Positions 27,120-64,000 of a stretch of DNA of 64,000 nt are shown here, piece after piece; the stretch's first letter is position 1; every line of letters starts with the position of its first letter. The stretch lies in contig CP092876.1 in assembly GCA_030710605.1 (NCBI GenBank), forward strand, positions 61,318,115-61,382,114. The letters run 5' to 3'. The notes under the pieces are model-generated. The model was not told the origin of the DNA. It ran no database searches and saw only the letters and a list, made by a program, of their open reading frames with translations. Both the position numbers and the translations under genes were made by a program. This DNA comes from Cordylochernes scorpioides. Its lineage: Eukaryota > Arthropoda > Arachnida > Pseudoscorpiones > Chernetidae.

Positions 27120-28416
27120 CAAGGTATGTCCCATAAGTTCCCGGACTGGGTGCATAAAAAAATAAATATATGAAAAATGTAATTGAATTTGACTGTTTAT
27201 TATTGAAAAAAAATCTGGCAACACGGTGGTACCAATATCGAAGCGTTACGTGCGCGCGCGCCAAGGTCATTCTAATTTATTTAAAGGTCACACCTAGCGC
27301 TGCGGCGATTTTACGATGGAACAAAAATTGAAGCAGGAGATTTGCATAGAATTTTGTTTGAAATTTCAAATATCAGAAACCGAAACTTTTTAAATGCTTA
27401 ATAAAGCATTCCCCAATTACGCCCCAAAGAGAACAACTGTTTTTAAATGGCATTCAAGATTTAAAGCTGGTAGAATTTCCATTGAAGATGATCCTCGTCA
27501 AGGACGCCCAAAATTTCAAAAGACTAATGAAAATGTGCAAAAAATTACCGATTTGATAAAGGAAAATCCTCGAACCAATTTTCTGGTGCTAGAGCAAGAC
27601 ACAGGCATATCTAAAACAACGATTGGAAATATCGTAACCGAAGATTTGAAGCTCAAAAAGACTCCTGCAAAATGCATCCCAAGATTCCTCACTAATGAGC
27701 AAAATCTGTGTCGGCTTGCAACCTGTGAGGACATGTTGGAAATGACAAGAACGGATCCGGAATGGAAAGACAAGATAATCACAGGCGACTAGACATGGGT
27801 CTATGGCTATGACCCTGAAACCAAGCGTCAATCTGCCGAGTGGAGAAGTCAGGGTGAGCCTAGACCCAAAAAATTCAGGATATTGAAATCCAGAAACAAG
27901 GTTTCTGGTCGCTTTTTTGGATAAGAAGGGCCTTGTTCATCACGAGTATCTTCCTGCAGGCCAAACAGTTTTTAAGGAAATGTATTTGGGCATTTTTCGC
28001 CATCAGATGGAAGCGATTCGAAAAAAAAGGCCAGAAAAATAGACTAATGGTGACTGGATCCTAGACCATGACAATGCCCGTCCTCACACGGCGCACTTGG
28101 TGACGAGGTTTTTGGCGAAAAATGGGACACAAATCCTACCTCAACCACCCTATTCCCCAGACATCGCACCAAATGACTTTTTATCTGTTCCCCAAACTTG
28201 AAGCAGTTTTAAAAGGAGGCCATTTTGACTCAGGGAAGACATAATAGAAAAATCGCTGTTGGCATTGAAGAGCATTCCAAAAGAGGCCTATAAAAACTGT
28301 TTCGACAATTGGGAGAAACGATGGCGCTGGTGCGGTGAAGCAAGGGAGATTACTTTGAAAAGTTTTAATAATTTTTTTTTATGAACCCAGTCCGAAAACT
28401 TATGGGACATACCTTG
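27120..28416 (+). mobile_element. Mariner element (family 1), copy on plus strand
   Basis: A 1297-bp element. TIRs: CAAGGTATGTCCCATAAGTT at 27120 and the inverse ending ATACCTTG at 28416. A TA follows the right end (28417-28418), while the left flank reads TT, so that TA has mutated. The same family occurs at 56838-58143. Confidence 0.9.
27316..28384 (+). pseudogene. Mariner D,D34D transposase, heavily decayed
   Basis: It starts MEQKLKQEICIEFC. Stops include TAA at about 27391 (after TETF) and TAG at 27790-27792, which replaces the Glu after the first catalytic Asp (TGD then stop then TWVYGYD). Further frameshifts follow near 27880 and 28180, and there is another stop within KKRPEK. The HTH half (RTTVFKWHSRFKAGRIS, GRPKFQ, TGISKTTIG) and the catalytic landmarks HDNARPHT and APNDF remain readable. 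The final codons are ITLKSF followed by a short tail. It cannot encode an active enzyme. Confidence 0.9.
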
Positions 28417-28599
28417 TAAATGCAAGCATTTGAGATTCCCCAATGTTTACCTTCCTATATATTATATTGAAAAAATACACATTGGGAAATAAAAAGGAAG
28501 AGAGGGTTTGGATGATGAATTATAACACCTCTTAGACAAATCTTTACACACACACTGGTCTAACTATTTTATTTTACTGGTAATTCTTGGAAATATTTT

Positions 28600-30372
28600 A
28601 CCTCCTCCCCTCTTTGCCCCACACCACCTGGGCTCTTCCTCCTTCTCCTTTGGCCCCACACCATCTGGGTCCTTCCTCCTTTGTCCCCACACCACCTGGG
28701 CTCTTCCTCCTTCTCCTTTGGCCCCACACCATCTGGGTCCTTCCTCCTTTGTCCCCACACCACCTGGGCCCTTCACCCTCCCCTCTTGGCCCCACACCAC
28801 CTGGGCTCTTCCTCCTTATCTTTTGACCCCACACCATCTGGGCCCTTCCTCCCTTGACCCCACACCACCTGGGCCCTTCCTCCTTTCCTCTTGGCCCTAC
28901 ATCACCTGGGCCCTTCCTCCTTTTCCTTTGGCCCCACACCATCTGGGTCCTTCCTCCCTTGACCCCACACCACCTGGGCCCTTCCTCCTTTCCTCTTGGC
29001 CCTACATCACCTGGGCCCTTCCTCCTTCTCCTTTGGCCCCACACCATCTGGGTCCTTCCTCCCTTGACCCCACACCACCTGGGCCCTTCCTCCTCCTCTC
29101 TTGGCCCCACACCACCTGGGCCCTTCACCATCCCCTCTTGGCCCCACACTACCTGGGTTCTTCCTCCTTCTCCTTTGGCCCCACACCATCTGGGCCCTTC
29201 CTCCCTTGGACCCACACCATCTAGGTCCTTCCTCTCTTGAACCACACCACCCGGGCCGTTCCTCCTCCCCTCTTTGCCCCACAACATCTGGGACATTTCT
29301 CCCTTGGCCCCACACCATCTGGGTCCTCCCTCCCTTGACCCCACACCACCTGGGCCCTTCCTCCTTTCCTCTTGGCCCCACACCACCTGGGCTCTTCCTC
29401 CTTCTCCTTTGGCCCCACACCATCTGGGTCCTTCCTCTCTTGACCCCACACCACCTGGGCCCTACCTCCTCCCCTCTTGGCCCCACACCACCTGTGCTCT
29501 TCCTCCTTCTTCTTTGGATCCACACCATCTGGGCCCTTCCTCCCTTGGCCCCTCACCATCTGGGTCCGTTCTCCCTTTACCCCACACCACCTGGCCCCTT
29601 CCTCCTTTCCTCTTGGCCCTACATTACCTGGGCTCTTCCTCCTTCTCCTTTGGCCCCACACCATCTGGGTCCTTCCTCTCTTGACCCCACACCACCTGGG
29701 CCCTACCTCCTCCCCTCTTGGCCCCACACCACCTGTGCTCTTCCTCCTTCTCCTTTGGCCCCACACCATCTGGGCCCTTCCTCCCTTGACCCCACACCAC
29801 CCGGGCCCTTTCTCCTCCCCTCTTGGCCCCACACCACCTGGGCTCTTCCTTCTACGCCTTTGGCCCCACACTATCTGGGCCCTTCCTCCCTTGGCCCCAC
29901 ACCATCTGGGTCCTTCCTCCTTCCCTCTTGGCCCCACACCACCCGGGCCCTTTTTCCTCCCCTCTTGGCCCCACACCACCTGGGCTCTTTCTTCTACGCC
30001 TTTGGCCCAACACTATCTGGGCCCTTTCTCCCTTGGCCTCACACCATCTGGGCCTTTCCTCTTCCTTCCTTGGCCCCACACCATCTGGGCCCTTCCTCCT
30101 TTGACCTCACATCATCTGGGCCCTTCCTCTTCCTCCTTTGACCCCACAACATCTGAGCCTTCTTCCTTTGGCCCCACACCATCTGGGCCCTTCCTCTTTT
30201 GGCCCCACACCATCTGGGCCCTTCCTCTTTTGGGCCCTCACCATATGGGTCCTTCCTTCCTTGGCCCCACACCACCTGGGTCCTTCCTCCTTCTCTCTTG
30301 GCCCCACACCATCTGGGCCCTACCTCTTCCTCTCTTGGTCCTACACTATCTGGACCCTTCCTCCCAGTTTGG
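28600..30372 (+). repeat. CT-rich minisatellite array S2 (31-37-bp units)
   Basis: Units begin TTGGCCCCACACCATCTGGG or TTGGCCCCACACCACCTGGG and continue CCCTTCCTCC (31 bp) or CTCTTCCTCCTTCTCC (37 bp). They share the TTGGCCCCA.ACCA.CTGGGC core with array S1, about 6 kb upstream. The two arrays are therefore branches of one minisatellite family with distinct subunit variants. The long overlapping ORFs in it are repeat artefacts. Confidence 0.95.
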
Positions 30373-44622: not shown

Positions 44623-46320
44623 AAGTCAACAATGATAGACCTACCAATTTCGGAATAAAAAATTATGGAACTAACATTGAAGGAACCGACAATGGTGGAA
44701 CCAACAATATAAGAGCCAACAATGATTGAAACAACAATAATGAAGTCAACAATGATGGAACTAACAATTTTGGAACAAAAAATATGGAACTAACATTGGA
44801 GGAACCGACAATTATGGATCCAACAATATAAGAGCCAACAATGATTGAAACAAAAATAATGAAGTCTACAATGATTGAAACAACAATAATGAAGTCAACA
44901 ATGATGGAACTAACAATTTTGGAACAAAAAATTATGGAACAAACATTGAAGGAACCGACAATGGTGGAACCAACAATATAAGAGCCAACAATGATGGAAA
45001 CAACAATAATGAAGTCAACAATGATGGAACTAACAATTTTAGAACAAAAAATTATGGAACTAACATTGAAGGAACCGACAATAGTGGAACCAATAATATA
45101 AGAGCCAACAATGATGGAAACAATAATGAAGTCAACAATGATGGAACTAACAATTTTGGAACAAAAAAATAATGGAACTAACATTGAAGGAACCTACAAT
45201 GGTGGAACCAACAATATAAGAGCCAACAATGATTGAAACAACAATAATGAAGTCAACAATGATGGAACTAACAATTTTAGAACAAAAAAATAATGGAACT
45301 AACATTGAAGGAACCTACAATGGTGGAACCAACAATATAAGAGCCAACAATGGTGGAAACAACAATAATGAAGTCAACAATGATGGAACTAACAATTTTT
45401 GAACAAAAAATTATGGAACAAACATTGAAGGAACCGTCAATGGTGGAACCAACAATATAAGAGCCAACAATGATGGAAACAATAATGAAGTCAACAATGA
45501 TGGAACTTAACAATTTTGGAATGAAAAATATGGAACTAACATTGAAGGAACCGACAATGGTGGAACCAACAATATAAGAGCCAACAATGATGGAAACAAT
45601 AATGAAGTCAACAATGATGGAACTAACAATTTTGGAACAAAAAATATGGAACTAACATTGAAGGAACCGACAATGGTGGAACCAACAATATAAGAGCCAA
45701 CAATGATGGAAACAATAATGAAGTCAACAATGATGGAACTAACAATTTTGGAACAAAAAAAAATAATGGAACTAACATTGAAGGAACTTACAATAGTGGA
45801 ACCAACAATATAAGAGCCAACAATGATGGAAACAACAATAATGAAGTCAACAATGATGGAACTAACAATTATAGAACAAAATATTATGGAAATAACATTG
45901 AAGGAACCGACAATGGTGGAACCAACAATATTAAAGCCAACAATGTTGGAAACAATAATGTGGTCAACAATAATAAAACTAACAATTTCGGAATAAAAAA
46001 ATTATGGAACTAACATTGAAGGGACCCGCAATGGTGGAACCAATAATTAAAGAGCCAACAATGATGGAAACAACAATAATGAGGTCAACAATGATGGAAC
46101 TAGCAATTTGGAACAAAAAATTATGGAACTAACATTGAAGGAACCGACAATGGTGGAAATAACAATGATGGTACCACAACGAAGTTACTAACAACGATGG
46201 AACTAACAATAATGGAGAAAGAGAATGAACAATATTGGAACCAAGAATTAGGTAACTAATAATATGAAACTAACAATTCTAGAAGTATAAAAGATGCAAC
46301 CAACAATAGCAGCAGAGCCC
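44623..46320 (+). repeat. AACAAT satellite (S3), regular 115-120-bp higher-order units
   Basis: About 14 higher-order units repeat in the order GGAACTAACAATTTTGGAAC, TATGGAACTAACATTGAAGG, AACCGACAATGGTGGAACC, AACAATATAAGAGCCAAC, AATGATGGAAACAATAATG, AAGTCAACAATGAT. Each contains 7-8 diverged 15-bp subunits. Indels in the A-runs change phase, so the long minus-strand frames (44663-45184, 45277-45513) are incidental. The last units from about 46150 are degraded. Confidence 0.93.
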
Positions 46321-46800: not shown

Positions 46801-47557
46801 ATATATATATAATATATAGGAATATATATTTTGCAAATATATATACAAGTATATATTTCTATATATTTAAAATCTATTCGATTATTGAAAAAATATATAT
46901 TATATTAGCTCTTTATACTATGAATTTTAAAATTATATTTTATTATTTAGACATACACGGTAGGATCAAAAAGTTCCCGAACTTTTAAAAAATAAAATAT
47001 AAAACAACTTTTGAAAAATTTAAAATCAATTTTACTGTAAAGAACAAAGCCTAAACTATGATTTACTTTAGCAACGCCAGTAAATACGCATGCGTAGTTT
47101 TCATTTTAGGCATATCTTTGTTGTAAGTAGAGGTGGGCAAAACGATTCTTTTAAGTGAATGATTCAGAATCGATTCACTCCGCAAAAAGAATCGATTCTT
47201 ATTATCGATTCTTCGATTCTTTATAAATAAAAATTAAAAAGATTAACGTTTGTATGGTGTGTGTGCATCCGGAAGAATAAATTATTCTAAACAAAATTAA
47301 AATCACCAAATCAGTTGTTTCATAAACACAATAAACAATAATAGTAGCAAGGAAAAAAAAAGGTTCATTTACCTAACACAAATTTTATTGAACTTCGGAT
47401 ATTTTAAAAGTAACATACACATAACATTATCTTAAAATAACAGTTTTATTAATAAGGAAAATAAACAAAATGAACCAAAAAGCTTACAAAATGAATGAAA
47501 TATAATTGCCAAAAAAAAAATTCAAAAATTATACAAAAAAAATACAAAAAATTTACA

Positions 47558-49547
47558 TTACACGAAACTGTGGTTTAAAAAAATATTTTTTGATATCTTA
47601 GACGAAGTTAGGCAAGACCGTTTCTGGGTGCAAATATTGCCTGCTTTAGAAAACAACCTCTCACAAGGAACAGATGTGGCCGGAATACAGAGCCGCTTTT
47701 GCATCAAAATAAACAAATCGGGGAAAATTGTCTTCCTTTCATGCCACCAAACTAGGGGGTCCATTCTTCTATCGATTATTGGCTCGGCTAGGTACTTGTC
47801 CACTTGTATTGTCGCATTTGCTTTTGGATCTTGTGCTGCTGTAAATTGATTTACAGCAGCATCGAAGTCTTCCCAAATTGATGAAGCTGATACTGGTCGA
47901 ACTTCAGGTGCCACAGGGCCGACTGTGGTTGCGGGAATAGAGGACTGTATCTTTTCTATAATTTTATTTTTTACTTCCAAGAAACGACTGGTGTTCTCTC
48001 CAAAGCCGTGCTTTTTGAAGCGTGGATCCAAGAAGATAGCCTGATTGATTAACTCAACATTTAACCTATCCCCAAATCTATTCGATAAGGCTTCTAATAG
48101 ATTTTTTCCTAATCGTAGGACTTCTTCGGAGAGGTTGTTTCCTCGGGTAGGTACATTTTCAATAGTCCGCCTCACAGACCTTGCCAGTCCCTGGGCCAGA
48201 ATGCATGTTTTTGACAAGGAAATTTTCTGTTCTGAGGAAACTTCCTCAGTAACTTCAAAAAAAAAAAATTAATATGGAAATAGATTCCTCTATCACTTTC
48301 CAGTCACTATCCCCCAGCAAAATTTTAGGATTGAGCAAAGCCAAGACGGATATCACTGGCTCTCGATTTTTCATGATGCGGTCTAACATCTCATACGTTG
48401 AATTCCAACGTGTTGGAACGTCTTGTTTTAACTTCAATGGTTTTGTGGAGAGATTAGCTTGCATTTCTCTTAATTTGGCCATTGCGTGGGAACTCTGTTT
48501 AAAAAATTGGACGATAGATTTTACCTTATCTACCGCGGATTTTATACTCTCATTAATGGACCTCTGAACCACCAAGTTAAGACTGTGGGCAAAACAAGAT
48601 AGGTGAGGTATCCCCAAGGTTTTTATTGCAGCTTTGATATTAGGGGCATTGCCAGTCACCACAGCGACCGTTTTAAAATCAAGTTTGAATTTTTTGGTTA
48701 CACCAAGAATCCACGATGATATATTTTCTGCAGTATGTTTTTGAGGAAACTCTGAACATTCGAGAAGAATGGAATTTAATTTTGTTGTGTAGTCTATGAA
48801 GTGTGCAGTAATGGCATAAAAACTGGTGGTATTTATGTTAGTCCAGCCATTACATGTCAGGCATACAGCATATGCTTCTTCCAACATCCCTGTAATTTTT
48901 ACGACAAGGGAGTCGTGAATCGAAATCAGAAGTCCGTTTGATAGAGATTTCCGGCTGGGTAATTTGTATGTTGGGCATAGCATATTTACAAAGGCTTTAA
49001 ATTCTTTATCTTCAACTAAACCAAAAGGATGATATTCCGAACAAATCATTTTCAATAGTTGAATATCTATTTGTCGGCTCCTATTTAGTGGTATGGGCCT
49101 TGATACATCCACAAAACTTGTCATAGAGGCTTGAGAGTTCTGCCTCTGAGGGACTGGAGTAGAAAGTGCAGAAGGTGACAGAGAAATAGTTGGAGAGCTT
49201 GACAATGATGATTTACTGGCAAGAGAAGGCGAATCATGCACGAGTGGTTGTTTAAAAGTATTATCTACTTCCTCTTCTGAAATGAATGCGAATACCGAGC
49301 GAGATCGAGACCTGTTTTCTTGTTGGGCTTCGTGACGCTCTATAGGAACCGTAACGTGCTTCTTGGATAGGTGCCTCTTCAAGTTACTCGTTGCTCCATC
49401 TGTAATTGCTATTTCGTTCTGGCAATAACGACATTTTCCTTTGGTACCCGTTTTAGTTTTAACCTTCTCAAAATGATACCATATATCTGACCGTGAACTG
49501 GAAGGACTTGCCATTTCTGTATAAACATAATAATAATGTTTTAACAT
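47558..49547 (-). pseudogene. hAT transposase (BED finger, hATC), frameshifted and catalytically altered
   Basis: It starts MLKHYYYVYTEMASPSSSRS. A BED zinc finger follows (about residues 20-65): IWYHFEKVKTKTGTKGKCRY with CRYC and LKRHLSKKH as ligands. The RNase-H-like core contains LTCNGWTNINTTSFYAITAH and VVTGNAPNIKAAIKTLG. Most hAT proteins have Asp at TxDxWT and at VTDNAxN. Here these are Asn (codon at 48849-48851) and Gly (48651-48653), so two of the three catalytic acids are gone. The C-terminal hATC dimerisation region (WWHERKTIFPDLFILMQK, VPCERLFSKAG) keeps the Glu. A frameshift in the A-run at about 48256-48268 separates the two open parts (430 and 219 codons). The expected EVTEEVSSEQ segment is readable in the intervening frame. 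Total length would be about 660 aa, normal for the family. Confidence 0.93.
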
Positions 49548-51017
49548 ATTTACTTTTTACGCTAACCCAACAAATTTAACACAATATCAAACATTCAATT
49601 TAACATAATATCAAACATTTTCAAATCTGGGGCCACGGTGATGTTGATTTGCCCAAAAAGTTAAACTAAAGTTTAAAACTCGAGTCATAATCTCGCTTGT
49701 TTGAATTGTTGAAATGCTTTACAATTAAGGAATATTACCATTAATTTTACTTATTCAAATAATTATATAATTAATAAACAAAAATATTAATCTGCAATAC
49801 TTACCAGTTGGATAATGTAGCGTGATTATATATGCTCGCGGGTCAGGTGTAAAATTAATATTAAAAATGTTTATTGAGTTATGTTTATACAATATCTATA
49901 TATTCAATACATTATAATTCGTTTGGGTGAGATACTCATCTACCGGAACTCGATCGGATTGTGTATGCCTCCGCCAAAAAAATAGTCCCTTTGTGTACTC
50001 CAGTTATGCACGGTATTAAAATAGTCCCAATGTGTACAACGTTTTTTTACACTTCATTATATATTAATTGACAAAATGCTATCCTTTTACCTATTTTTGT
50101 TAATTTATGAGAAGGGTTTAATCATAAAAAAAAGGAAAAAACAAAAATTTCCATTCCAAAAATAGTGTTTTATTTGTGTATTGAATAAATAGAATTTTAT
50201 TTCCTTGTACGCTTGTACAGCTAAATAACCAAATAAATCGATTTAAAGGAAATATGCACCGATCGATAAATTAATTAATCTAGATATTTATATAGAAATA
50301 TTTACTGACTTAAATAAAAGCATTTTTTATATATGTATAGGGTTATCCACCGACCGTTGCAACTTTTCATCGACTAGGGCTACAAAAGACAATGTAAATT
50401 TTGCCGACTTTGTTTCCTTATAATTAGGAAAGTCTTTTAAAATAAAAAAAAATATAATGCAGCCACTTAGCTATGATGCTCAGGATTCAAAATATGTATT
50501 AAGGTATATATATACTATACATTGTTTAGTTTGGTCTTATATCCACAATGTACAAATGAATGTTTTTATATAGCCCATTAAAATCTTTAGTGTAGAAATA
50601 TATATGTAATAATATAAAGAACTATATCCCCTCACCACACTAGTAGAATACTGTATAAAAAGTGATGTAAATTGCAAAGAACAATACCCATCCACCATTC
50701 TTCTAGAATACTGTATAAAAAGTGATGTAATTTGCAAAGGACAATACCCATCCACTATTTTTCCAGTACACTGTATATAGAATAATGTGATTTGTAAGGC
50801 GCAATCCATCCAACCCTTTATTAATAATGTATGTTTACACAATGTACCATTTAATTGTAAAAATGTGTGTGGATTAATAAAGATGGCGACCAGAGTAGAG
50901 AGAGAGAGCATTATTAAACGTTATATACAAAAAGAAACACAACCTCGGAGGCTTTGTTATTTTCTCCTTAAAAAATATATAAATAACCAAATTTCGAAAG
51001 TAAATTATGTATATTTA
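49548..51017. other. Inner hAT sequence, non-coding
   Basis: AT-rich sequence of the hAT element between the transposase start and the copia insertion. Apart from the 60-bp tandem repeat (50629-50815) no feature is recognised. A minus-strand 124-codon ORF over that repeat is rejected. Confidence 0.45.
50629..50815 (+). repeat. 60-bp tandem repeat, about 3 units
   Basis: The unit contains TAGAATACTGTATAAAAAGT followed by GATGTAAATTGCAAAGAAC and AATACCCATCC. Successive copies start at 50641, 50701 and 50761, with the third more diverged. Confidence 0.85.
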
Positions 51018-51227
51018 TGTTGTAAGATTTAGGTACTTACAGCTTGTAGGAAGGCATGAGGACGTTGAGGATTATATGATAATAATCTTTATTATCCATT
51101 TAGCAAGAAAGACAAAGTTATGGTAGCGAACAGTTATTGTAAGTATAGAGAAGAAAGGTAAACAAACAGTTGTGATGATGATAGGTCCAGTGTGGCGCTA
51201 GCTGTCGTAGCATTCAGTTATCCAACA
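51018..51227 (-). repeat. Copia 3' LTR
   Basis: 210 bp, TGTTGTAAGATTTAGG to CAGTTATCCAACA as written on the plus strand. The polyprotein reading frame ends ten bases inside it (stop at 51218). Confidence 0.95.
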
Positions 51228-54200
51228 AATCCCCGGCATGAATGTGGAGACATCACGAGGTTGTAGCGTAACTTCTCAAATGTCGGCCTTGGTAGCGGCT
51301 TGGTCAGAATGTCCGCCTTCATGTCGCCAGTTGGGCAGTAGACCATTTTTATCACTGTCTTCTTCTGAAGATCCTTCAGGTGATGGATCTTGGTTGCGAT
51401 GTGCTTGGTTCTAGAAGACACTTTTTCGGATGAACATATCTTGAGACATGATTGATTGTCTTGGTGGAAGTAGATTGGAGCTTTCTGTTCCAGTTCGAGA
51501 TCCTTTAGCAAGTCGAGAAGCCATAACAGTTCTTGTGAGGCTTCAGCTGCGGAGATAAGTTCCGCTTCGGTGGATGAGAGAGATACGCAACCTTGTTTCC
51601 CAGTCATCCATGAGATGGGGTTTGAACCCAGTAGGAACAAGTTTCCGCTTTGTGATTTTCTGTCGGTGTTGTCGCTTGCCCATGTGGCATCACTGTATGC
51701 TTCCAGTGTGGGAGGTTTTTGGTTAGATATGCGTAGCTCGAGTTCTTTAGTGGTTTTTAGATATCTTACGATTCTTTTTGCTGCATTCCAGTCACAATTT
51801 CTAGGATTCTGGTTTCTGCTGCTTAGTATGCAGACTGGAGCTGCGATATCTGGTCTGGATACTACGCTTAGGTACAATAGTGAGCCTATCAGTTGTTGGT
51901 ATTGGACGTTGTTTGGTAGAAGTTTTTCATCAGATATACCGGGATATCCGCTTTCCATGGGAGTGAAAGTAGGTTTCGCTTCTTGGAGATTGTACCTTTC
52001 AACTAATTCTTGGATTTTACTCTTTTGGCTCAGTAGGAGTTCACCTTCTCTGTTCCTGGAGATTTCTATACCAATGAATTGAGTGGGGTCTCCAAGGTTC
52101 TTTATTTCGAATTCTTTTTCGAGAGTTTTTACAGTGTTTTGGATGATTATTTAGGAATCGCTTGCAAGGAGCATGTCATCCACATATAGAATCAAGTAGA
52201 TGGAATGGTTTTCTTCATTCTTGGTGAATAGGCATGGGTCTACAAGGCTCTGTTTGAAGTTAGTTTTAATTAGAGTGCTTGCAATTTTTGTGTTCCAAGA
52301 TCTTCCAGCTTGTTTTAGACCGTAAATTGCCTTCTTTAGTTTGCAGACTTTGTTTGTTTGTTTTGTATGGAGTCCTTCTGGGAGTTCCATGTAGAGTTCT
52401 TTATCTAGGTCGCCGTGTAGGAACGCTGTCTTGACATCGAGGTGGTTCACTTTCATCCCTTTGTAGACTGATGCAGCTAGGAAGGCTCTAATTGTAGAAT
52501 GCTTCACAATTGGTGCAAAGGTTTCTTCGTAGTCTCGGCCAAATTTCTGATTGAACCCTTTTGATACGAGTCTGGCTTTATACCGCTCTATTTCTCCTTT
52601 GGAATTGAGTTTTTGTTTATAGGTCCATTTACATCCTATGATCTTTTTGTCCTTAGGTAGAGGCGTTAGTTCCCATACGTTGTTCTTCTCAAGAGAATTT
52701 AGTTCTTCGTTCATTGCTTGTAGCCATTTTTCTCTTTCTATTTTTTGGTAATTGTAGGACTTCCGAGTAGTTGGTGGGTGTCTGAATGTCTTGAGCTTCA
52801 GTTTTGTACAGCATGTAGTCATTTCTTATGGGAGGTATTCCCTTTGTTGGTCTCGTGGATCTTCTTTGTGTGACCACTTGTGTTCCTGTGCTTGTACTGG
52901 GTTGAATGTAATCCTCGGTTTCTGAGTCCTCAAGGTTTTCGGATTGTGTTCCTGGTTCCTGACTTTCCTCTGCATTTCCAATATGATTGGAGGAAGTTAG
53001 ATCTGTACTTAGTACTTGTGGTGAAGTTGTTTTTGTGGAAGCGTGGTGAAACCCATTTTCTTTTTCTATAAATTTTACGGATCTGCTGATTGTGATGTCG
53101 TCTGTGTCGTGCAGGATTCTGTATCCTTTGCTTCGATCATCGTATCCAAGAAAAATCCCTTCGATAACTTTGCTATCCAACTTGTTTCTTTTTATCTTGG
53201 GAATATAGGCGAAGGCTTTACATCCGAATCTTTTTATATGCTTCAGACTGGGCTTCCTGTTGGTCCATAGTTCAAAAGGAGTCTTGTCTGTAGCTTTCGA
53301 GGGTATTCGGTTGTGTAGGTAATTAGCTGTGGTAACCGCTTCCGCCCATAGAGACTGTGGGAGTCCTGAGTCAAACAGCATGCATCTTGTCATCTCCATT
53401 AGTGATCGATTTTTCCTTTCGGCTACTCCGTTCTGGGCTGGTGAGTAGGGGACTGTTAGCTGATGTTTGATTCCGCTTTGGTTCAGGAAATCTTCGACTT
53501 GTCGGTTTACGTACTCACGACCGTTGTCTGTCCGTATGGTTTGGATATTTTTTCCAAATTCCGTGTGTGCTGAGATGACGTAGTCTTTTATTTTTTCATA
53601 GACTTCGTCTTTTCCTTTCAGGAGGTAGATCTTCGTGTATCTGCTGTAGTCATCAGTGAAGGTGATGAAGTATCTCTTACCGCTGAGAGAGTTAGTTGGT
53701 AATGGACCGCAGATATCACTGTGGACAAGTTGAAGCGTTTCAGTTGCTCTGTACTCTGTCTTCTTTGGAAATGGGGTTTCGGTGAGTTTTCCTTGAATGC
53801 ACTGAACGCAGTCTGTGCTGTGCGAACAGTTATTTAGACTTAGTCCTCTTGCTAGGTTCTCATTTCGAATCTTCTTAATTGATTCTATATTTCTGTGTCC
53901 TAGTCTGTCGTGCCAGAGCATGAGGCAATTTTTGTTCTTGCAGTGGTTTTGTTTTGCAACATTTGCTTTGAATGTGCGAGTTTGGGGGTTGTCATCCAGG
54001 TGGAGTCGGTACATTCCATTGTCAAGTATACCGTTCGCGAGGGCTGTGTTGTCTCTTTCGATGGTACACCAATCTCTGTTGAACGTCACTTTACATCCGT
54101 TGGAGGTGGCCGCACTCACTGACAGAAGGTTGTCTGTTAGTTCCGGGATGTAGAGAACTTTTGTGAGAAGTAAGGTGTCAGTCTTTCCTTGGGGTGTGAT

Positions 54201-55226
54201 GACTTTGATTTCTCCTTGTCCTATCCCTTTGACCTGCAGCTTATTGCCATTAGCAACCACAACATTTTGTGTTTGTTCTCTGTTAAGTTCAGTGAAGAAG
54301 CTTTCATCGTACGCCATATGAGATGTGGCTCCAGAGTCGATGAACCAGTTGTGTACACTTGCTTCTCGTTGAGTGCAATTGAGAGCTTTTGGGTTAGGTC
54401 CTTTTGTTGTTCTCTGATTTGTTGATTGTTCTTGGGTGACACTCGACTGATTTGTGTACTTTGGTACGTTTCCTCTTCTGAAGTTTTCATATTTGTACTC
54501 TTTGTTGCTGTTGTTTCGCTTTTGATAGTGCCAACATTCTTCTTTGGAGTGGTTTGGTTTGTGGCAGAAAGAACAAAATTTCTTCTCTTTTTCTCTTCTT
54601 TGGCTTGAAGCTCCGTGGAGGCTTTTTAAGGCTTTTGATGCGGTGCTTTCGTCTTTCGAGCTTTCTACTCTGCGTGTGTGTTCATCAAGGAGTTTGTTCT
54701 TGGTGAATTCAAGCGTTAGCTCGTCATCAGGCCTTGATTCCAACATCGTGATGAGATTTGAGTAGCTCTTTGGAAGCGAGCAAAGCAGTATAGCCGTGAT
54801 GTGAGAGTCCTTTAGTGTTTCGCCAATGGTTCGCAGTTTGTCGACAAGTTCCATCATGGTAGTGATGTGCTGCTGCATGTCTTTGTCTTCTTCGAGTTTT
54901 AAGCTGTATAGCTTCCTTAGCAAATAAATTTTTCCTGAGAGTGTTTTTCTTTCATAGATATTTTTAAGAGTGTCCCAGGTAGCTTTGGCTGTTAGTAGGT
55001 TTTTGACATGCACTATTTGTGAGTCGGCGATGCTTAGATTAATGATAGCTCTAGCTTTTGAGTCTTTCTTTTTCCATTCGATTTTAGGTTCATCTGGAAT
55101 ATTTTCGGTGACAACTTCCCAAAGATCTTCCTTTTGCAAAAGCATTTCGATTTTGAAAGACCATAGTGAGTAGTTATAGCCGTCGAGCTTATTTAGGGTT
55201 ACATCGTGGCTCGGGAGTGACGCCAT
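51218..55226 (-). pseudogene. Copia gag-pol polyprotein with one frameshift and one stop
   Basis: Domains in order on the minus strand: gag (about residues 1-210, LDGYNYSLWSFKIEMLL); zinc knuckle CSFCHKPNHSKEEC (218-231); aspartic protease FIDSGATSH (DSG 297-299); integrase zinc region (H439, H443, C473, C476); and core with D504, D567 and E603 (DD35E; VHSDICG, RTDNGREY, NGVAERKN). After residue about 820 a one-base shift in the A-run near 52738-52760 breaks the frame. RT continues as EKWLQAMNEELNSLEKNNVW and LDVKTAFLHGDLD, with the catalytic LYVDDMLLASDS. A TAA at 52151-52153 follows, then the same frame runs on through FIGIEIS to RNase H (SLSSTEAELISAAEA, KHIATKIHHLKDL). All catalytic motifs are intact. 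Only the two lesions prevent a full product. Confidence 0.95.
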
Positions 55227-55302
55227 TTTTGCTAAGCCTTTTTTTTTCTTTGTCTTAACTCGTTAGTTGAATTTCATGCAATATTCAGTCTCATAATCTA
55301 AT

Positions 55303-55512
55303 TGTTGTAAGATTTAGGTACTTACAGCTTGTAGGAAGGCATGAGGACGTTGAGGATTATATGATAATAATCTTTATTATCCATTTAGCAAGAAAGACAA
55401 AGTTATGGTAGCGAACAGTTATTGTAAGTATAGAGAAGAAAGGTAAACAAACAGTTGTGATGATGATAGGTCCAGTGTGGCGCTAGCTGTCGTAGCATTC
55501 AGTTATCCAACA
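55303..55512 (-). repeat. Copia 5' LTR
   Basis: 210 bp, reads as identical to the 3' LTR. The start codon of the polyprotein lies 76 bp downstream in the sense direction (55226). I could not assign the primer-binding site with confidence. Confidence 0.95.
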
Positions 55513-55852
55513 ATTTATATTATCAAATTATGTGGCTAATATATTGCCTCACATATATTTCGAAATATAAAACTTCAAATTTGAGCGTCTAATATAAATA
55601 TAAATTGAAAAATTGCTTTTTAAAATAATTTAATTAATGGCCGAGCATGACACTAACGTCGAGCTAATTGCGCTATTTTTCGATTTTTAAATATATTTTT
55701 GAGGATAATTGAATAATTCCGGTACAAAATGTAATATGTATACAAAAGATTGGCGTTTAAAATTGAGTATTGAGCTTTAAAAAATAATAAGATATTTAAA
55801 CATATATATAACAAATATATTCAGAATATAAAGAATATATTTTTAAAAAATT

Positions 55853-55950
55853 CATTTTAACTTTTCGAATTTGTAGATTGTATAGGAAATATATTATAAT
55901 ATTAAAGAATATATTTCCTATACAATCTACAAATTCGAAAAGTTAAAATG
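55853..55950. repeat. Perfect 43-bp inverted repeat inside the hAT
   Basis: The left arm 55853-55895 (CATTTTAACTTTTCGAATTT onward) and right arm 55908-55950 are exact inverses around a 12-bp AT centre. They could form a stable hairpin. Confidence 0.85.
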
Positions 55951-56184
55951 GATTTTTTTTTAAATGTTCAATTATTGTTTTTAATGTTTTGTAAGTAAAA
56001 TGTATATATATATACTATCTATAAATAACACGCATCAAATAAATTTAATGCTTAAAATATCCAATTATTTATATTGATAACATGCGTGACTCGTGAACAG
56101 GAGAATCGAGGAGTTAAAAGAATCAAAGAACGAAAAGAATCAGTTCAGAATCAGATCGGGAACTTGCTACCGATTCGATTCCCG

Positions 56185-56400
56185 AATGAATCGTCTTCCA
56201 ATCTTCGATTCTTCGATTCTTTCGATTCTTTCGATTCTTCGATTCTTTCGATTCTTTCGATTCTTCGATTCTTTCGATTCCCGAGAATTGAAAGGAGTGG
56301 GAGTCAGAAGAACCGTGATTCTTCTTTGGGAATCGAATCGAAGAGCGCTCTTTCGGATGAGTGAATCAAAAGAATCGATTCTCGATTCACTTGCCCACCT
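56185..56400. promoter_or_regulatory. hAT subterminal motif cluster (right end)
   Basis: Many copies of TTCGATTCTTTCGATTC-like sequence and AATCGATTC lie within about 220 bp of the right TIR. The left end (47140-47225) carries the same motifs (AGAATCGATTC, ATCGATTCTTCGATTC). In hAT elements such repeated subterminal motifs are transposase-binding sites; that role here is inferred. Confidence 0.55.
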
Positions 56401-56749
56401 CTAGTTGTAAGTATTTAGCTCGCGTCGGTTTCTGCAATGTCATCATTTGAGCAAAGGGCAAATATTAAATTCTGTGTAAAATTAAAAATGTCTTCCACGG
56501 AGACTTTAGCATTAATGAATGAAGCTTAAGAAGAGGGAAAATTGTCACGAACGCAAGTTTATTTCTGGTATAAACCTTTTAAAGATGGCCGTAATAGCAT
56601 CGCAGATGAATCAAGGTCAGGTCGGCCATTGACGTCAACAACAGATCGCAATATTGGACAGGTACGTGATTTAATTGTTGCTGATAGAAAAATTACTATT
56701 GATAATATATCTGGAATACTTTAAATTTCGTATGGTAGTTGCCAAAATT

Positions 56750-57947
56750 TTATCGGTGAACATTTAAACATGAAAAAACTTTGTGGTTATTTTGTCCCAC
56801 GAAATTCAACAGATCAACAATGAGAAACCAGATTATACAAGGTATGTCCCATAAGTTCCCGGACTGGGTCCATAAAAAAAAGGTAAGATTTTTAAATTTT
56901 TTTTTATTAAAACTTTTCAAAGTAATCCCCCTTGCTTCAACGCACCAGCGCCATCGTTTCTCCCAATTGTCGAAACAGTTTTTATAAGCCTCTTTTGGAA
57001 TGCTCTTCAATGCTAACGGCGATTTTTCTATTATGTCATCCCTGGTGTCAAAATGTCTTCCTTTTAGAACTGCTTTAAGTTTGAGGAACAGGAAAAAGTC
57101 ATTTGGTGCGATGTCTGGGAAATAGGGTGGTTGAAGTAGGATTTGTGTCCCGTTTTTCGCCAAAAAGCTAGTCATCAAGTGCGCTGTGTGAGGGCGAGCA
57201 TTGTCATGGTGTAGGATCCAGCCACCATTAGTCCATTTTTCTGGCCGTTTTTTTCGAATCGCTTCCCTTAGACGGCGAAGAATGCCCAAATACATTTCCT
57301 TAATAACTGTTTGGCCTGCAGGAAGATACTCGTGATGAACAATGCCCTTGTTATCCGAAAAAGCGACCAGCAACACCTTGTTTCTGGATTTTTTTGGGTC
57401 TAGGCTCACCCTAACCTCTCCACTCGGCAGATTGAGGTTTGGTTTCAGGGTCATAGCCATAGACCCATGTCTCGTCGCCTGTGATTATCTTGTCTTTACA
57501 TTCTGGATCCGTTCTTGTTATTTCCATCATGTCCTCACAGGTTGCAAGCCGACACAGTTTTTGCTCATTGGTGAGGAATCTTGGGATGAATTTTGCAGGA
57601 GTCTTTTTGAGCTTCAAATCTTCGGTTACAATCCTTCCAATCGTTGTTTTAGAGATGCCTGTGTCTTGCTCTAGCTCCAGCAAAGTGGTTCGAGGATTTT
57701 CTTTTATCAAATCGGTGATTTTTTGCACATTTTCATCAGTCCTTTGAAATTTTGGGCGTCCTTGACGAGGATCATCTTCAATGGAAATTCTGCCAGCTTT
57801 AAATCTAGAATGCCATTCAAAAACAGTTGTTCTCTTTGGGGGGTCATTGGGGAATGCTTTATTAAGCATTTCAAAAGTTTCGGTTGCTGATATTTGAAGT
57901 TTCACACAAAATTCTATGCAAATCCTCTGCTTCAATTTTTGTTCCAT
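56750..57947 (-). pseudogene. Mariner D,D34D transposase (family 1), nearly intact
   Basis: It starts MEQKLKQRICIEFCVKLQIS. The HTH segments (KRTTVFEWHSRFKAGRISIE, TGISKTTIGRIVTEDL) and the catalytic ITGDETWVYGYD are intact. A TAG at 57411-57413 ends the first open part where the sister copy has a Gln codon. A shift in the following A-run restores KSRNKVLLVAFSDNKGIVHH. The second Asp (HHDNARPHT) and third Asp (IAPNDFFLF) are spaced 34 residues apart. The usual stop after ITLKSF is lost, so the open frame runs through the TIR and 88 bp into flanking sequence to 56750. The element needs two repairs at most to be coding, so it is younger than the plus-strand copy. Confidence 0.92.
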
Positions 57948-58143
57948 CGTAAAATCGCCGCAGCGCTAGGTGTGACCTTTAAATAAATTAGAATAACCTT
58001 GGCGCGCGCGCAAGTACCGCCTCGATATTGGTACCACCGTGTATCCAGATATTTTGTCTATAATAAACAGCCAAATTCATTTACATTTTTCATTTATTTA
58101 TTTTTTTATGGACCCAGTCCGGGAACTTATGGGACATACCTTG
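56838..58143 (-). mobile_element. Mariner element (family 1), reverse-strand copy
   Basis: 1306 bp. TIRs CAAGGTATGTCCCATAAGTT at 56838 and its inverse ending 58143, identical over at least 28 bp. TA on both sides (56836-56837, 58144-58145). It is closely similar to the copy at 27120-28416 but much less decayed. It sits within the transposase gene of the family 2 mariner. Confidence 0.94.
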
Positions 58144-58865
58144 TATAATGCAAAGATTTAATTGAAACTGCAAATAATGATTCGGATATTTTAAAAACAA
58201 TAATAACTGGTGATGAAACATGGTTCTTTCTTTTTGATCCACAAACCAAAAAAACAATCACTCGAATGACACACACCAAGTTCTCCTTGAAAGAAGAAAG
58301 TTCGTCTTGACAAATCCAAACGAAAAGTAATGCTTGTAGTGTTTTTCGATTATCAAGGGCTTATCTATTATGAATTTATTAAAGAGGGGGTTACTATTAA
58401 TAAACAGGCATACAAAGAAATACTTGTGCGCCTTCGTGATGCGATAAGAAGAAAAAGAAACCAACTCTTTAAATCAAAACAGTGGTAATTGCTACATGAT
58501 AATACCCCTGCTCATAGAACCTTTATTGTTCAAGACTATTTAGCCAAACTCTCTGTATATGTCTAACCGTATCCTCCGTACTCTCCTGGTATCGCCCCAT
58601 GTGATTTCTTCTTCTTTCCAAACATAAAATGACGTTGAAAGGGAGGCGCCTTTCATCGTCATCAGAAGTAATTGAAGATGCGACGGTGGAGCTAAACAAG
58701 CTTTAAAAAATTGACTTTAAAATATCATTTCAACAGCTTTTTCCATGCTGGAAAAAAAATGTGTAGATAACCAAGGCTCCTATTTTGAAAATTTTTATGT
58801 TTAAATTACTATACTATGAATAAATAATTAATTTAAAAAGTTCGGAACCTTTTGATTTTACCTTG

Positions 58866-59220
58866 TATATAGGTTGAAATAAAAGCGCCAAGTTAAGAAG
58901 TTCGAAAAATAGCCCTTTGATTCATGATTCTGATATATGTGTGATCTACAGTCTTTCTTAGTTATATTATATTCATGTTACTTGAATTTTGCCTGTTTTG
59001 AAGTTTCATTTATGTGAGAGCTGTACCAATGCTAATACAATTCCTTTTTTTATCTTCAGCCTTGCTCGAATTCTTCTGACCATCAGTTGCCACTACCAAC
59101 CTGTGCAATTAGTCCCGTGCAACAGGGTAGAAAAGATTGAGTAAAACATTGACAAAATAATGACAAAGAATACTCATGTGTATTGAGAAAATAATGAAGA
59201 TGTCGACATCTCTGATTATA
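58866..59220. other. AT-rich, nothing recognised
   Basis: Right flank of the nested complex; no feature supported. Confidence 0.4.
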
Positions 59221-59221
59221 T

Positions 59222-59510
59222 GCAACTTTGAAAACATTAAGACGCGAATGTTTATTTGCACAAACAAATAACACTTCTACTGTCCTTACTGCGATTAAAA
59301 ATATTGGGTTTCGCCAATTTAATCTACCAATCCGCTTCTTTAGAGCTCTAATACTATATTGGATCACTCTGCTTATATACGCTGCACTAAAGAGTGGAGT
59401 CCTTGAAATGGTTTTCAAGCGGATTATGTAGAATTACATATAAATATTTTCATCGAGGAATGTTCTTCCGCAAACAATAAGGACAGGGCCAGTCAGGCAT
59501 AAATTAATAC
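59222..59510 (+). repeat. MITE family F copy
   Basis: It reads GAAAACATTAAGACGCGAAT, ACTTCTACTGTCCTTACTGC, GGGTTTCGCCAATTTAATC, TTTAGAGCTCTAATAC. It lacks the GGGAGGG core by a small deletion. The tail (AACAATAAGGACAGGGCCAG) pairs with the segment near 4310-4350. Confidence 0.6.
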
Positions 59511-59514
59511 AAAG

Positions 59515-59750
59515 CATTTAACGCGCCATCTATGTATATTAAATGAAAACATTAAGACGCGAATGCCTATTTTCACAAATAAATTAAACTTCTATTGTTC
59601 ATACTGCGATGAAAATTTATTGGGAGGGCTTGGTTTATCCGTAGTGAACCCTCCCAGCGGCTTCGTCATTTTAATCTACCAGCCCGCTTCTTAGAGCTCT
59701 AATACTGTATTGAAATCATTCCGATTATATATGCTAGACTGAAGGGTGGG
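59515..59750 (+). mobile_element. MITE family F, well-preserved copy
   Basis: It starts ATTTAACGCGCCATCTATG. It runs AACATTAAGACGCGAATGC, ACTGCGATGAAAATTTATTG, GGGAGGGCTTGGTTTATCC, GTAGTGAACCCTCCCAGCGG, TTAATCTACCAGCCCGC and ends near GATTATATATGCTAGACTG. It is the best reference for the non-palindromic form of the family. Confidence 0.7.
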
Positions 59751-60529
59751 CTTTCTTTTTTCGAAATTTCATATAAATTATTGAGTTGCCTCAACCGGTG
59801 CCATCATATATAGAAGCTAGGGAAATTAAAGACATCAAAATAAGCTATTAGATTAATATTTTTCGTTGAATACAAGCAAAATGGACTGAATATCGTGAAG
59901 AAATACATTGATAGGTTTTTATTAAGGTGTTTTCTCTGGTCGCAATCAAATAGTTCAAATATATTTTATATTTTAAATCTCTATCTCTTCTCTGCGTAAA
60001 TATTTATCTTTCTGAGAAACCTCACGGTCGATTCCAAACTTATTGGATAACGTGCATGGCTATTTGAACAATCTTTTTATTCCTTCTATATATCTTTCCT
60101 CGAATTTGAATTAAATTCATATATAATATTCTAATGTTTTTCTGAAAGTTGTGTGTTTTTTTTTTTTGCAGAACTCCTCTCAAACTATGAATAGTTTTGA
60201 TGTGGTATTTGTCCAGATGTAATTCACGGGTGATATCTCGATTTTTCCACTTTTTATTTGAAAGGTGAAGTTAAATTTATTATCATTAAATCAGACGCGA
60301 TATCCCTACAAAGGCTATTTACGTCAATAAAAAACACTAAACACAGAGGCTATTTTACATTAACAATTGAATATATAATTATAAAGTTTGAGTAGAAGTT
60401 AAATAACGAAAAGAAAGGTATATAGTTATATCTTGCCTTTATGAAATATCAATAAATAGTAGCGATACTGAGGTGATGATGATACATATTTATTGTTATC
60501 ATCATTACTAATACTTTTAATATTTTATA
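59751..60529. other. AT-rich, nothing recognised
   Basis: No gene or RNA supported. AAATCTCTATCTCTTCTCT near 59980 also occurs before the candidate exon at 63586. Confidence 0.35.
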
Positions 60530-60790
60530 TAGATAACACACAAATAGAGCTTACAGTTTTAAAGTTTTAAGCAATCTCCTCCAAATATACTGAACTATAC
60601 ACAGCGATCTATATACTAAAATTGTCGTTATTTTTTACTTTCGTGTGTCACACTTATTTTTATTCTTCAAATATAATTAGTTATATCTATTTTATAATTG
60701 ATTCAATTTCTAATAATCGATTTTTCATTTCAAAATTTTACTTTATATTTTTATCATCCCCAAATTTCTTTGTTTTTAAAACGTGCGTAT
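60530..60790 (+). repeat. Inverted-repeat arm (pairs with 62240-62520)
   Basis: TTTTAAGCAATCTCCTCC, ATATACTGAACTATACACA, TTTTACTTTCGTGTGTCACA and TTATTTTTATTCTTCAAATA recur inverted at 62240-62520. A third, shorter copy in direct orientation is at 60960-61110 (ATACACTAACAGAGATTTTA, CTCCTCCAAAGATACTGAAC). Confidence 0.65.
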
Positions 60791-60959
60791 ATTATTGAAT
60801 TTAATTGATTTCTAATGGAAGAGATTACGTGGTTCGATTTCTATTATTATTTATTTCTTTTATTATAATTGTATGTTTATAGGTTTGTTACATATTTGCA
60901 ATATTTTACTGTTCACAAGCAAAAGCTGCCAAAAGTCAATACATATTTCAATTTATCTG

Positions 60960-61110
60960 TTATATTACAGTAATCGCCGATTCCAGTATCAATACCGAAA
61001 TACATATAGATAATACACTAACAGAGATTTTAGTTGTAAAGGTTTAAGCAATCTCCTCCAAAGATACTGAACTAGAAACTTTACTTGGGGATCTATTCTG
61101 GATGGACAGG
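60960..61110 (+). repeat. Partial copy of the 60530 repeat
   Basis: Shares AATACACTAACAGAG and TTTAAGCAATCTCCTCCAAA with the arms described at 60530 and 62240; it extends them outward (GATTCCAGTATCAATACCG). Confidence 0.55.
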
Positions 61111-61474
61111 ATTTGACCATTTGCATATCTGCCCCAATGTATATTATATAATATAAAATGCATTTTTTTTCAAAAACATGTATTTTATTTTCATTCATTG
61201 ACTGTTCTACATATTTTGACCATATATTTATAACATAACTTTGAATATTGTTGTAAATATGTATAGTTGACCTACCTATTTTTTTAAAAATCACGAATAT
61301 AGAATTCATCTTATAAATTCTATATTACTCTAATAAATAATTTTATGTGTAATTTGCTTCAAGTAATTCTAAATGAAAACTACTTGATAAGTAAATAATA
61401 TTTTTTCTATTTTCACGACTGTACCTTCAATTCCCTATCCTTTTCAACACAACAAAACAAAATATTCATAACAT

Positions 61475-61570
61475 CTATATTCTTTGTTAGAAAGTATTTT
61501 TATTCAAACTTACTCTTAAAATTCTGCTTCTACTAAACTAAAATATACCCATTGCGATTTTCAAGCCACT
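61475..61570 (+). repeat. Dispersed repeat family K, three copies in 61.4-63.0 kb
   Basis: TTTGTTAGAAAGTATTTTTA, followed by CTTACTCTTAAAATTCTG and AAATATACCCATTGC, recurs at about 62930-63005 (same strand) and inverted at about 61905-62005. The related copies carry ATCTGCCC.AATGTATATA just before. Confidence 0.6.
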
Positions 61571-61573
61571 CTC

Positions 61574-61640
61574 TATACTCTTAATGTGCCTTCTTCACCC
61601 GTGTGTTTGGCCGAAGGGCCTGTGAACACATTAAGAGTAT

Positions 61641-61641
<1 letters not shown>
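61574..61641. repeat. Hairpin with perfect 15-bp stem
   Basis: TATACTCTTAATGTG (61574-61588) and CACATTAAGAGTATA (61627-61641) pair exactly around a 38-base loop that contains its own GGCCGAAGGGCC. A further ACATTAAGAGTATAGATGG at about 61889 belongs to the same family. Confidence 0.6.

Positions 61642-61667
<26 letters not shown>
61641..61667 (+). repeat. (AC)n microsatellite
   Basis: About 13 uninterrupted AC units. Confidence 0.97.
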
Positions 61668-61671
<4 letters not shown>

Positions 61672-62239
61672 CCTTTATTAGGGACTTGCCTCATACAGAA
61701 TCTTCCATTTGGGTAAGGTAATAATCATCTTGTGTTATTTTCATACAAATTGAACTGGCTTTACTCTTCATCTCAAAGACATTCACTTGTTGACTGGTGC
61801 TTACATAATAATGATCTAAATAATTATAGTAAGCTATTGCCTTTGAATAGTTTGCTGATATTTTTACGAAAGCAATACGTAGGGTGAAGACATTAAGAGT
61901 ATAGATGGTGGTTCAAAATTGCAACAGATATATTTATTAGAATCAACATTACAAGTAAGGTTGAATGAAAATTCTTTATACAAAGTATATACATTAGGGC
62001 AGTACGACCACGGATAAATCCCGGGCATCCATAGTAGAATTCCAAGGAAAATTTCCACAGAAAAGTAATTCAGAAGAGTATTCAATAATTAAATTAGAAA
62101 CACGAAAATAATATACTATTTGAAAAATTAATATTATATTATTTATAATAAAACCTACTTGTTTTAAAACAATGGAATTTGATGTGAGCAATAGTTACCC
62201 AGAAATTATTTGAAATAGAAAAAATAAAAATCAGGTAAA

Positions 62240-62520
62240 ACGTTTATTTTAATTTTGAATTTGAAAAAATTGTGTGTGGAATTTGGTGATTATGAATATA
62301 TAAAGGGAAATTTGAAGCAAAAATCTAAGATTGGAAAATTGAATTAATTTAAAATGAATATAACAACTGATATTTATAGAATAAAAATAAATGTGACACA
62401 CGAAGTAAAAATAATGAAAATTTTGGTATATAGATAGCTATGTATATTTCAGTATCTTTAAAGAGGAGATTTTTAAAACTTTACAACTGAAAACTCTGTT
62501 AGTGTATTATCTCTATATAG
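62240..62520 (-). repeat. Inverted-repeat arm (pairs with 60530-60790)
   Basis: Reverse complement of the 60530 repeat over about 270 bp with moderate divergence, 1.45 kb away. The two could be the ends of one large inverted-repeat element or independent insertions. Confidence 0.6.
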
Positions 62521-62583
62521 ATTATATGAGTTACGATATTGGAATATGATTACTGAAATACAACGATATATTAAATATTGCGA

Positions 62584-62840
62584 ATGAAGATATTAAGACG
62601 CTAATGTTTCTTTTCACAAATAAATCAAACTTCTACTGTCCTTACCGCGATGAAAAAATATTGGGAGGGCTTGGCTTATCAATAGTGAACCCTCCCACTG
62701 ATGAGCCAAGCCCTCCCAATATTTTTACGTCGCAGTAAGGACAGTAGAAGTTTGATTTATTTGTGAAAAGAAATATTAGCGTCTTAATATCTTCATGCGT
62801 TATATATAGATGGCGCGTTATTGCTTTGTATTAAGCTATA
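62584..62840. mobile_element. Palindromic MITE family F with 93-bp arms
   Basis: Left arm 62584-62676 and right arm 62704-62796 are inverted copies with about three mismatches: ATGAAGATATTAAGACGC, CACAAATAAATCAAACTTCT, ACTGTCCTTAC, TATTGGGAGGGCTTGGCT. The 27-bp centre carries AATAGTGAACCCTCCCACT. Outside the right arm are GATGGCGCGTTATTGC and TTTGTATTAAG, the outer family end. Confidence 0.85.
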
Positions 62841-63242
62841 TTAAAGTTTAGAATGAGGGGATCATATATCGCCGCAACTCTTTTGGATGTCCAGGATTTA
62901 ATAGTGTTCGTATCTGCCCGAATGTATATACTTTGTTAGAAAGTATTTCCATTTAACCTTATTTTAAATGCTGATTCTAAGAAATCAGAATATACCCATT
63001 GTCGAAATCCGCAATCCGTTTACCATGAATATATTAAAGTGTTTATTGACTTTTTCAGTTTTTGCTTGTAAATAACAATAAATAATAAACAAAATGATGC
63101 TAACATATTGATAAAGGTAATTATATAACAATTGAATTAGAAACACGGAATATCTATCAGAAATTAATTGAATTCTATAATTCAAACGCACATCAACTGA
63201 AAACAAAACAATTTGTTGATGGAAATAAATAAAATATTTTTT

Positions 63243-63375
63243 TTAAGACGAGAGTGTTTATTTCACAATTAAATCAAACTTTTAATTATCAAACTTCTAG
63301 TTATTTGTGGAAGAAACATTTGCGTCTTATGTTTTCATTTGTTATATATAGATGGCGCGCTATTTCTTTGTATTA
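63243..63375. repeat. MITE family F, short palindromic derivative
   Basis: It reads TAAGACGAGAGTGTTTATTT, AAATCAAACTTTTAATTATC then inverted AAACTTCTAGTTATTTGTGG and AACATTTGCGTCTTATG, GATGGCGCGCTATTTC. The core between the arms is deleted. Confidence 0.6.
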
Positions 63376-63585
63376 AAGTTAAAATTTGAAAGAAAATATT
63401 CTTCGAATGGAAAATTGAATTAATTAATTAAATAAATATATAGATTATATAACCATATTAACTGAAAAAACATTTATTGAAACTATATTATTTATACATT
63501 TATTTACTTATCAAAACATGTGAGAAGATAGTTCTTTTTTAAATGTAAAGTGAGACTCATAAAATCTCTATCTCTTCTCTAACAG

Positions 63586-63778
63586 GGAAGACATCCTCGA
63601 GTACCTGTCACCTGAGCAGAGGTATGCTCTGAAGCTATTCTTCGGCATGGCAATAGTCGGGGGGAGATCTGTCCGACTTCAGGACGTGACATCATACGAG
63701 ACGACCCTCAGTGGGATTCGTCTGATGAAAATAATATTCAAGTTTAATATTTTAAAAATATATATTAACCCTGTATAA
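63586..63778 (+). CDS. Candidate 3'-terminal exon of an unknown host gene
   Basis: A textbook acceptor (TCTATCTCTTCTCTAACAG) ends at 63585. Reading from the second base, the frame gives EDILEYLSPEQRYALKLFFG, then VGGRSVRLQDVTSYETTLSG and IRLMK, before an AT-rich tail and TAA at 63776-63778. Codon use is balanced (CTC, GAG, CTG, GAC, ACC), in sharp contrast to the flanks, and drops back to AT-rich after about 63735. No strong donor is visible, so it may be terminal, or a weak donor may lie near 63710-63735. I do not recognise the family. It is the most convincing piece of host coding sequence in the window, together with the ORF at 17180. Confidence 0.45.
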
Positions 63779-63884
63779 TTTTATATTAGTAAATTAAATT
63801 TAATTGCCATCTATCGTTAAAATTTTACACAAATAAATTTACTGGCAATGCGCTTCTTTTAAATATCATCAAATATTATCTCTA

Positions 63885-64000
63885 CAGACCTTACTGCAAT
63901 GATATGAGTTATTGAATGAGAGGGCTTGGCTCATCAGTAGTGAACCCTCTCAGCGGTTTCGCCAAATTAATCTCTAGACCGCTCTACTATTGTATTGGAT
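63885..64000 (+). repeat. MITE family F copy, cut by window end
   Basis: It reads CAGACCTTACTGCAATGAT, GAGGGCTTGGCTCATCAGT, AGTGAACCCTCTCAGCGG, TTTCGCCAAATTAATCTC, then GACCGCTCTACTATTGTATT at the window edge. Confidence 0.65.

Follow-up and report, generated by a model that had tools for sequence, protein, structure and literature searches.

Relative dating of transposable elements from nests, in which elements lying within other elements yield a partial order of activity, is established through the TCF/Interruptive Matrix Analysis and TinT, as described in an excerpt of the source (PMC3014933). A first-pass annotation of the DNA considered here had proposed that fully readable nests provide a relative clock for transposon activity, which is correct but, going by that excerpt, already formalised by these methods; the principle is the same, whereas the present case is one single nest made up of two mariners, a hAT transposon and a Ty1/copia element. 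The target pattern of the hAT transposon Hermes is given as nTnnnnAn in the available section of PMC10368747. Among mariners, Rpmar11 of Rhodnius prolixus is represented only by internally deleted copies and is thought to use the transposase of another lineage, according to the available text of PMC4678618.

We analysed a 64,000-nucleotide stretch of the Cordylochernes scorpioides genome (the window), in which the two mariners (mariner 1 and mariner 2), the hAT transposon and the Ty1/copia element are laid out as follows:

46956–47127, plus strand: left piece of mariner 2, including the left GTTGTAAG (47120–47127), preceded by TA at 46954–46955; colinear with relatives and in the same orientation
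47128–56403, minus strand: hAT transposon, 4776 bp without the copia element and one ATTTA, recognised by a 13-bp terminal inverted repeat (TIR), CGATTC repeats and its target duplication
47558–48268, minus strand: C-terminal part of the hAT transposase, read in another frame than the N-terminal part and containing the hAT dimerisation region
48255–49556, minus strand: N-terminal frame of the hAT transposase with a BED zinc finger and a Hermes-like region
51018–55512, minus strand: Ty1/copia LTR element, LTRs at 51018–51227 and 55303–55512
51218–52825, minus strand: copia reverse-transcriptase region in two open frames (52151–52825 and 51218–52150)
52689–55262, minus strand: copia frame of 857 amino acids with gag, gag-pre-integrase and integrase
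56404–56837, plus strand: middle piece of mariner 2, with the right GTTGTAAG (56404–56411), a degenerate N-terminal part of the transposase and TA at its end; recognised from relatives and from homology to mariner 1
56838–58143, minus strand: mariner 1, 1306 bp, with 43-bp perfect TIRs and TA on both sides
58144–58865, plus strand: right piece of mariner 2, with a degenerate C-terminal part of the transposase and the right inverted repeat, followed by TA at 58866–58867
27120–28418, plus strand: an older copy of mariner 1, outside the nest (BLAST 92%), which has 14 bp missing from young copies

We are highly confident that this is a real but ordinary nest of selfish DNA, in which the hAT and mariner 1 inserted into mariner 2 and the copia element later into the hAT. 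Each element belongs to a well-known family, and both the nest and the mariner 1 lineage are systems of a known kind. All four element boundaries and their duplications were re-read to the base in the sequence itself: TA for mariner 2 (46954–46955 and 58866–58867), GTTGTAAG for the hAT (47120–47127 and 56404–56411), ATTTA for copia (51013–51017 and 55513–55517) and TA for mariner 1 (56836–56837 and 58144–58145). With base composition as it is here, two randomly chosen places share an 8-mer with a probability of 2.5e-5. After subtraction of the inserts, mariner 2 measures 1318 bp, the hAT 4776 bp, copia 4495 bp and mariner 1 1306 bp, the two mariners being oppositely oriented. The first-pass annotation had described a four-element nest in which mariner 2 holds a hAT that holds a Ty1/copia element and is also split by mariner 1, with a host of about 1318 bp; the exact junctions and the subtraction bear this out, and Pfam and PDB matches agree with its identification of two mariners, a hAT and a Ty1/copia element.

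Both mariners are recognised by a TA duplication, TIRs and a mariner transposase. In mariner 1 the transposase is of the D,D34D type, with the second and third D separated by 34 residues according to an eye count on the translated frame, which is itself broken; it matches HTH_48 and Transposase_1 in Pfam, and Mos1 and SETMAR in the PDB. Its two open frames (57411–57965 and 56750–57484, the latter extending into mariner 2) are parted by a stop and a 14-bp loss. A search of viral contigs gave one weak match at 39% (L009). Mariner 2 is more degraded: its TIRs have diverged (84% over 38 bp by BLAST), and its transposase pieces, which retain the D34D spacing by an eye count, contain several stops and are 37–47% identical to mariner 1.

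To look for uninterrupted copies of the host, we searched the genome (2.62 Gb, 24 contigs) with the right piece of mariner 2, which gave 2521 first-look candidates, of which 40, including the nest, were scored; the other 39 were 91–92% identical to this query, and 29 of them were fetched. At the hAT site, 24 of the 29 relatives have the left piece joined to the middle piece with an 8-bp overlap and carry a single GTTGTAAG there (exact in 19, with one change in 5), while the remaining five either have no left piece in the alignment (three) or small deletions (two). The mariner 1 site is unbroken in 26 of the 29, where the middle piece runs on into the right piece with no more than 1 bp of difference; two of the other three have gaps of 238 and 127 bases, and the third is three bases shorter than the rest. 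The continuous relatives exceed the rejoined nest site by one base, and the position of the nest TA reads TC in 24, TA in one and AC in one. Because 25 of these 26 have no TA and the relatives are a base longer, we attribute the difference to mutation of the target before or after the insertion: either the diverged nest copy had a TA that is not typical of the family, or its flank was altered afterwards. The claim that every junction is resolved thus stood for the duplications, with the mariner 1 site less clean than claimed, and the proposed check for uninterrupted copies, with 24 and 26 of 29 joined, upheld the insertions of the hAT and of mariner 1 into mariner 2. Additionally, residues 11–140 of the mariner 1 transposase match the middle piece of mariner 2 and residues 143–176 match the right piece, so that the homology runs across the second break, in agreement with a once-continuous host.

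Three pairs among the 29 loci have both flanks in common, and a fourth (L026/L031) shares parts of one flank, so the set amounts to about 25 independent insertions. The members of these pairs (L012/L016, L018/L025, L027/L032 and L026/L031) lie about 29–73 kb apart on one contig, with both flanks alike at up to 99.9% in the first three, and reflect either segmental duplication on a local scale or haplotypes that the assembly left uncollapsed.

The hAT element combines an 8-bp duplication and a short TIR (13 bp, perfect, TAGAGGTGGGCAA) with a minus-strand transposase that matches zf-BED in Pfam and, in a second frame, Dimer_Tnp_hAT; part of it matches Hermes in the PDB. CGATTC occurs five times in the left 200 bp and 13 times in the right 306 bp of the element, as against once in its interior and six times in the rest of the window. 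As in Hermes and related hAT elements, a BED finger, a Hermes-like region and a dimerisation region are present, and the duplication GTTGTAAG fits the Hermes pattern as given in the available section of PMC10368747; in contrast, the element here is 4776 bp long with a transposase frame broken between the BED part and the dimerisation part, and we assign it to the superfamily rather than to the Ac group. No relatives of its transposase were found among IMG/VR viral contigs or GTDB genomes, and neither the hAT nor the copia pieces found a BLAST match in the loci collected up to that stage of the analysis. The right part of the hAT also contains a 51-bp inverted repeat (55845–55958), 98% complementary and with 12 bp between its arms.

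In the copia element, integrase precedes reverse transcriptase (Pfam order Retrotran_gag_2, gag_pre-integrs, rve, then RVT_2), which, together with the copia-type gag, TG...CA LTRs and a short duplication, places it in Ty1/copia. Its LTRs read TGTTG...CAACA and are identical (0 of 210 bp different). The coding sequence is interrupted twice, by a frame break ahead of the reverse transcriptase and by a single in-frame stop inside it, after which the RVT_2 match lies below the Pfam cut-off (28.4 against 31.6 bits). A search with a 783-bp copia query gave 1784 first-look candidates; all 39 scored copies other than that of the nest were at least 99% identical over the 783 bp. Fourteen of them were fetched, and all lack hAT sequence within the 1.5 kb flanking the LTR, so the copia family is independent of the nest hAT. 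The LTR start is exact in 13 of the 14 loci, and no flanking 5-mer is ATTTA, two sharing ATTTT and the rest differing. We also observed that GTTGTAAG starts one base inside both LTRs (T-GTTGTAAG, at 51019–51026 and 55304–55311); it occurs four times in the window, two of these being the LTR pair, where roughly one per 64 kb per strand is expected, and its presence in the LTRs is probably chance.

We next compared mariner 1 copies, taking the best 40 of 1600 first-look candidates, that is, those nearest to the nest copy and including it, so that figures for these 40 describe the nearest subfamily of a defective copy and not the whole family. In 39 of the 40, the left end has TA next to CAAGG; the exception, L072, has no left end in the alignment. 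Since this arrangement is constant wherever the left end is seen, we rejected an alternative boundary in which the element starts with TACAAGG and the TA lies outside, a choice raised by the palindromic flanks here; some copies, L004 and L005 among them, have no TA before TACAAGG. All 40 copies lack 14 bp of the transposase frame, 37 being caught by an automatic pattern and the other three, which have a nearby substitution, being read from the letters. The same stop just before the loss was read by eye in 39 of the 40, and no methionine-initiated open frame on the coding strand is longer than 207 amino acids. The copies have a mean pairwise identity of 98.04% (minimum 94.87%) and are inserted at separate sites in the genome, with flanks that differ in sequence. 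The older copy at 27120–28418 averages 93.3% identity to the 40 young copies; its 14 bp keep the transposase halves in one frame there, and it has other defects of its own.

It could be argued that the nest is only apparent, with unrelated transposon fragments joined by repeat-driven misassembly: mariner 1, mariner 2 and copia are highly repeated in this genome (1600, 2521 and 1784 first-look candidates), and the assembly holds the local duplicated pairs described above. Random joins, however, would produce neither matching duplications (8, 5 and 2 bp) precisely where the elements end nor mariner 2 pieces in the same order as in 24 to 26 of 29 relatives, and the sole run of N in the window (15485–15925) lies outside the nest, which makes such an artefact extremely improbable. 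We hold it equally improbable that the hAT and copia moved as one composite, without copia landing in a resident hAT. Support for a copia insertion into the hAT comes from the copia side: the copia element has its own 5-bp duplication, all 14 other copia loci are free of a hAT match in the 1.5-kb flank, and the 13 loci with an exact LTR start have no flanking ATTTA. The junctions, taken together with these 14 loci, thus point to a copia element that would have inserted into the hAT.

A different question is whether the nest mariner 1 was still autonomous at insertion and later broke on its own, as its position in old, decaying DNA might suggest, and as might the window copy at 27120–28418, which has the frame-keeping 14 bp. 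We consider this very unlikely, because the 14-bp loss in 40 of 40 copies and the stop in 39 of 40 are found at different places with differing flanks. Lesions common to such copies predate their spread, and the transposase would then have come from elsewhere. Very probably, then, the nest mariner 1 had already lost its transposase frame before landing and was moved by transposase made elsewhere, and the young lineage as a whole probably spread on the transposase of another element; intact members may exist among the remaining candidates. We see an even chance that mariner 1 is a near full-length, transposase-dead lineage that spread entirely on another mariner's transposase and is now a major recent mariner in this genome. 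The resemblance to Rpmar11 is that of a recent lineage without transposase-making copies for which the enzyme of another lineage is supposed; in the available text of PMC4678618, however, the Rpmar11 copies are internally deleted to 921 bp, whereas mariner 1 copies are close to full length (the one in the nest has 1306 bp) and carry the 14-bp loss and the stop.

The nesting fits the order of events proposed in the first-pass annotation, with mariner 2 first, the hAT and mariner 1 independently, and copia after the hAT. On this reading, a mariner 2 copy landed at a TA and then decayed; a hAT entered its left part, presumably by cut-and-paste with an 8-bp staggered target; mariner 1 entered a TA within the mariner 2 transposase gene, in the opposite orientation and independently of the hAT; and the copia element, judging from the junctions, would have integrated later into the hAT with a 5-bp duplication. 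The mechanisms are taken from what is known of these families. The nesting supports mariner 2 before the hAT, mariner 2 before mariner 1 and the hAT before copia; the hAT and mariner 1 are unordered by the nest, and copia and mariner 1 are ordered by divergence only. Over the right piece of mariner 2, relatives average 94–95% pairwise identity and the nest copy 92.0%, and among the three families measured, divergence suggests that mariner 2 is the oldest, mariner 1 next and copia the youngest, although all these identities come from copies chosen by similarity to the nest copies and are biased, not true ages.

For a 2.6-Gb genome, the nest gives a partial order of when four families were active, and it makes a clean worked case, with uninterrupted relatives to confirm the duplications. 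Mariner 1 is likely another example of a defective lineage that spread in trans, and it has a bearing on the question of how such lineages outlast their own enzyme.

Elsewhere in the window, we observed minisatellite arrays at 11644–13106 (24-bp units), 17608–22425 (37/73-bp), 28612–30364 (37-bp) and 44661–46216 (15/120-bp), the second and third of which are related at about 72%. Beside the nest, 59229–63983 contains scattered short repeats that also match near 2387, 6292 and 24249.
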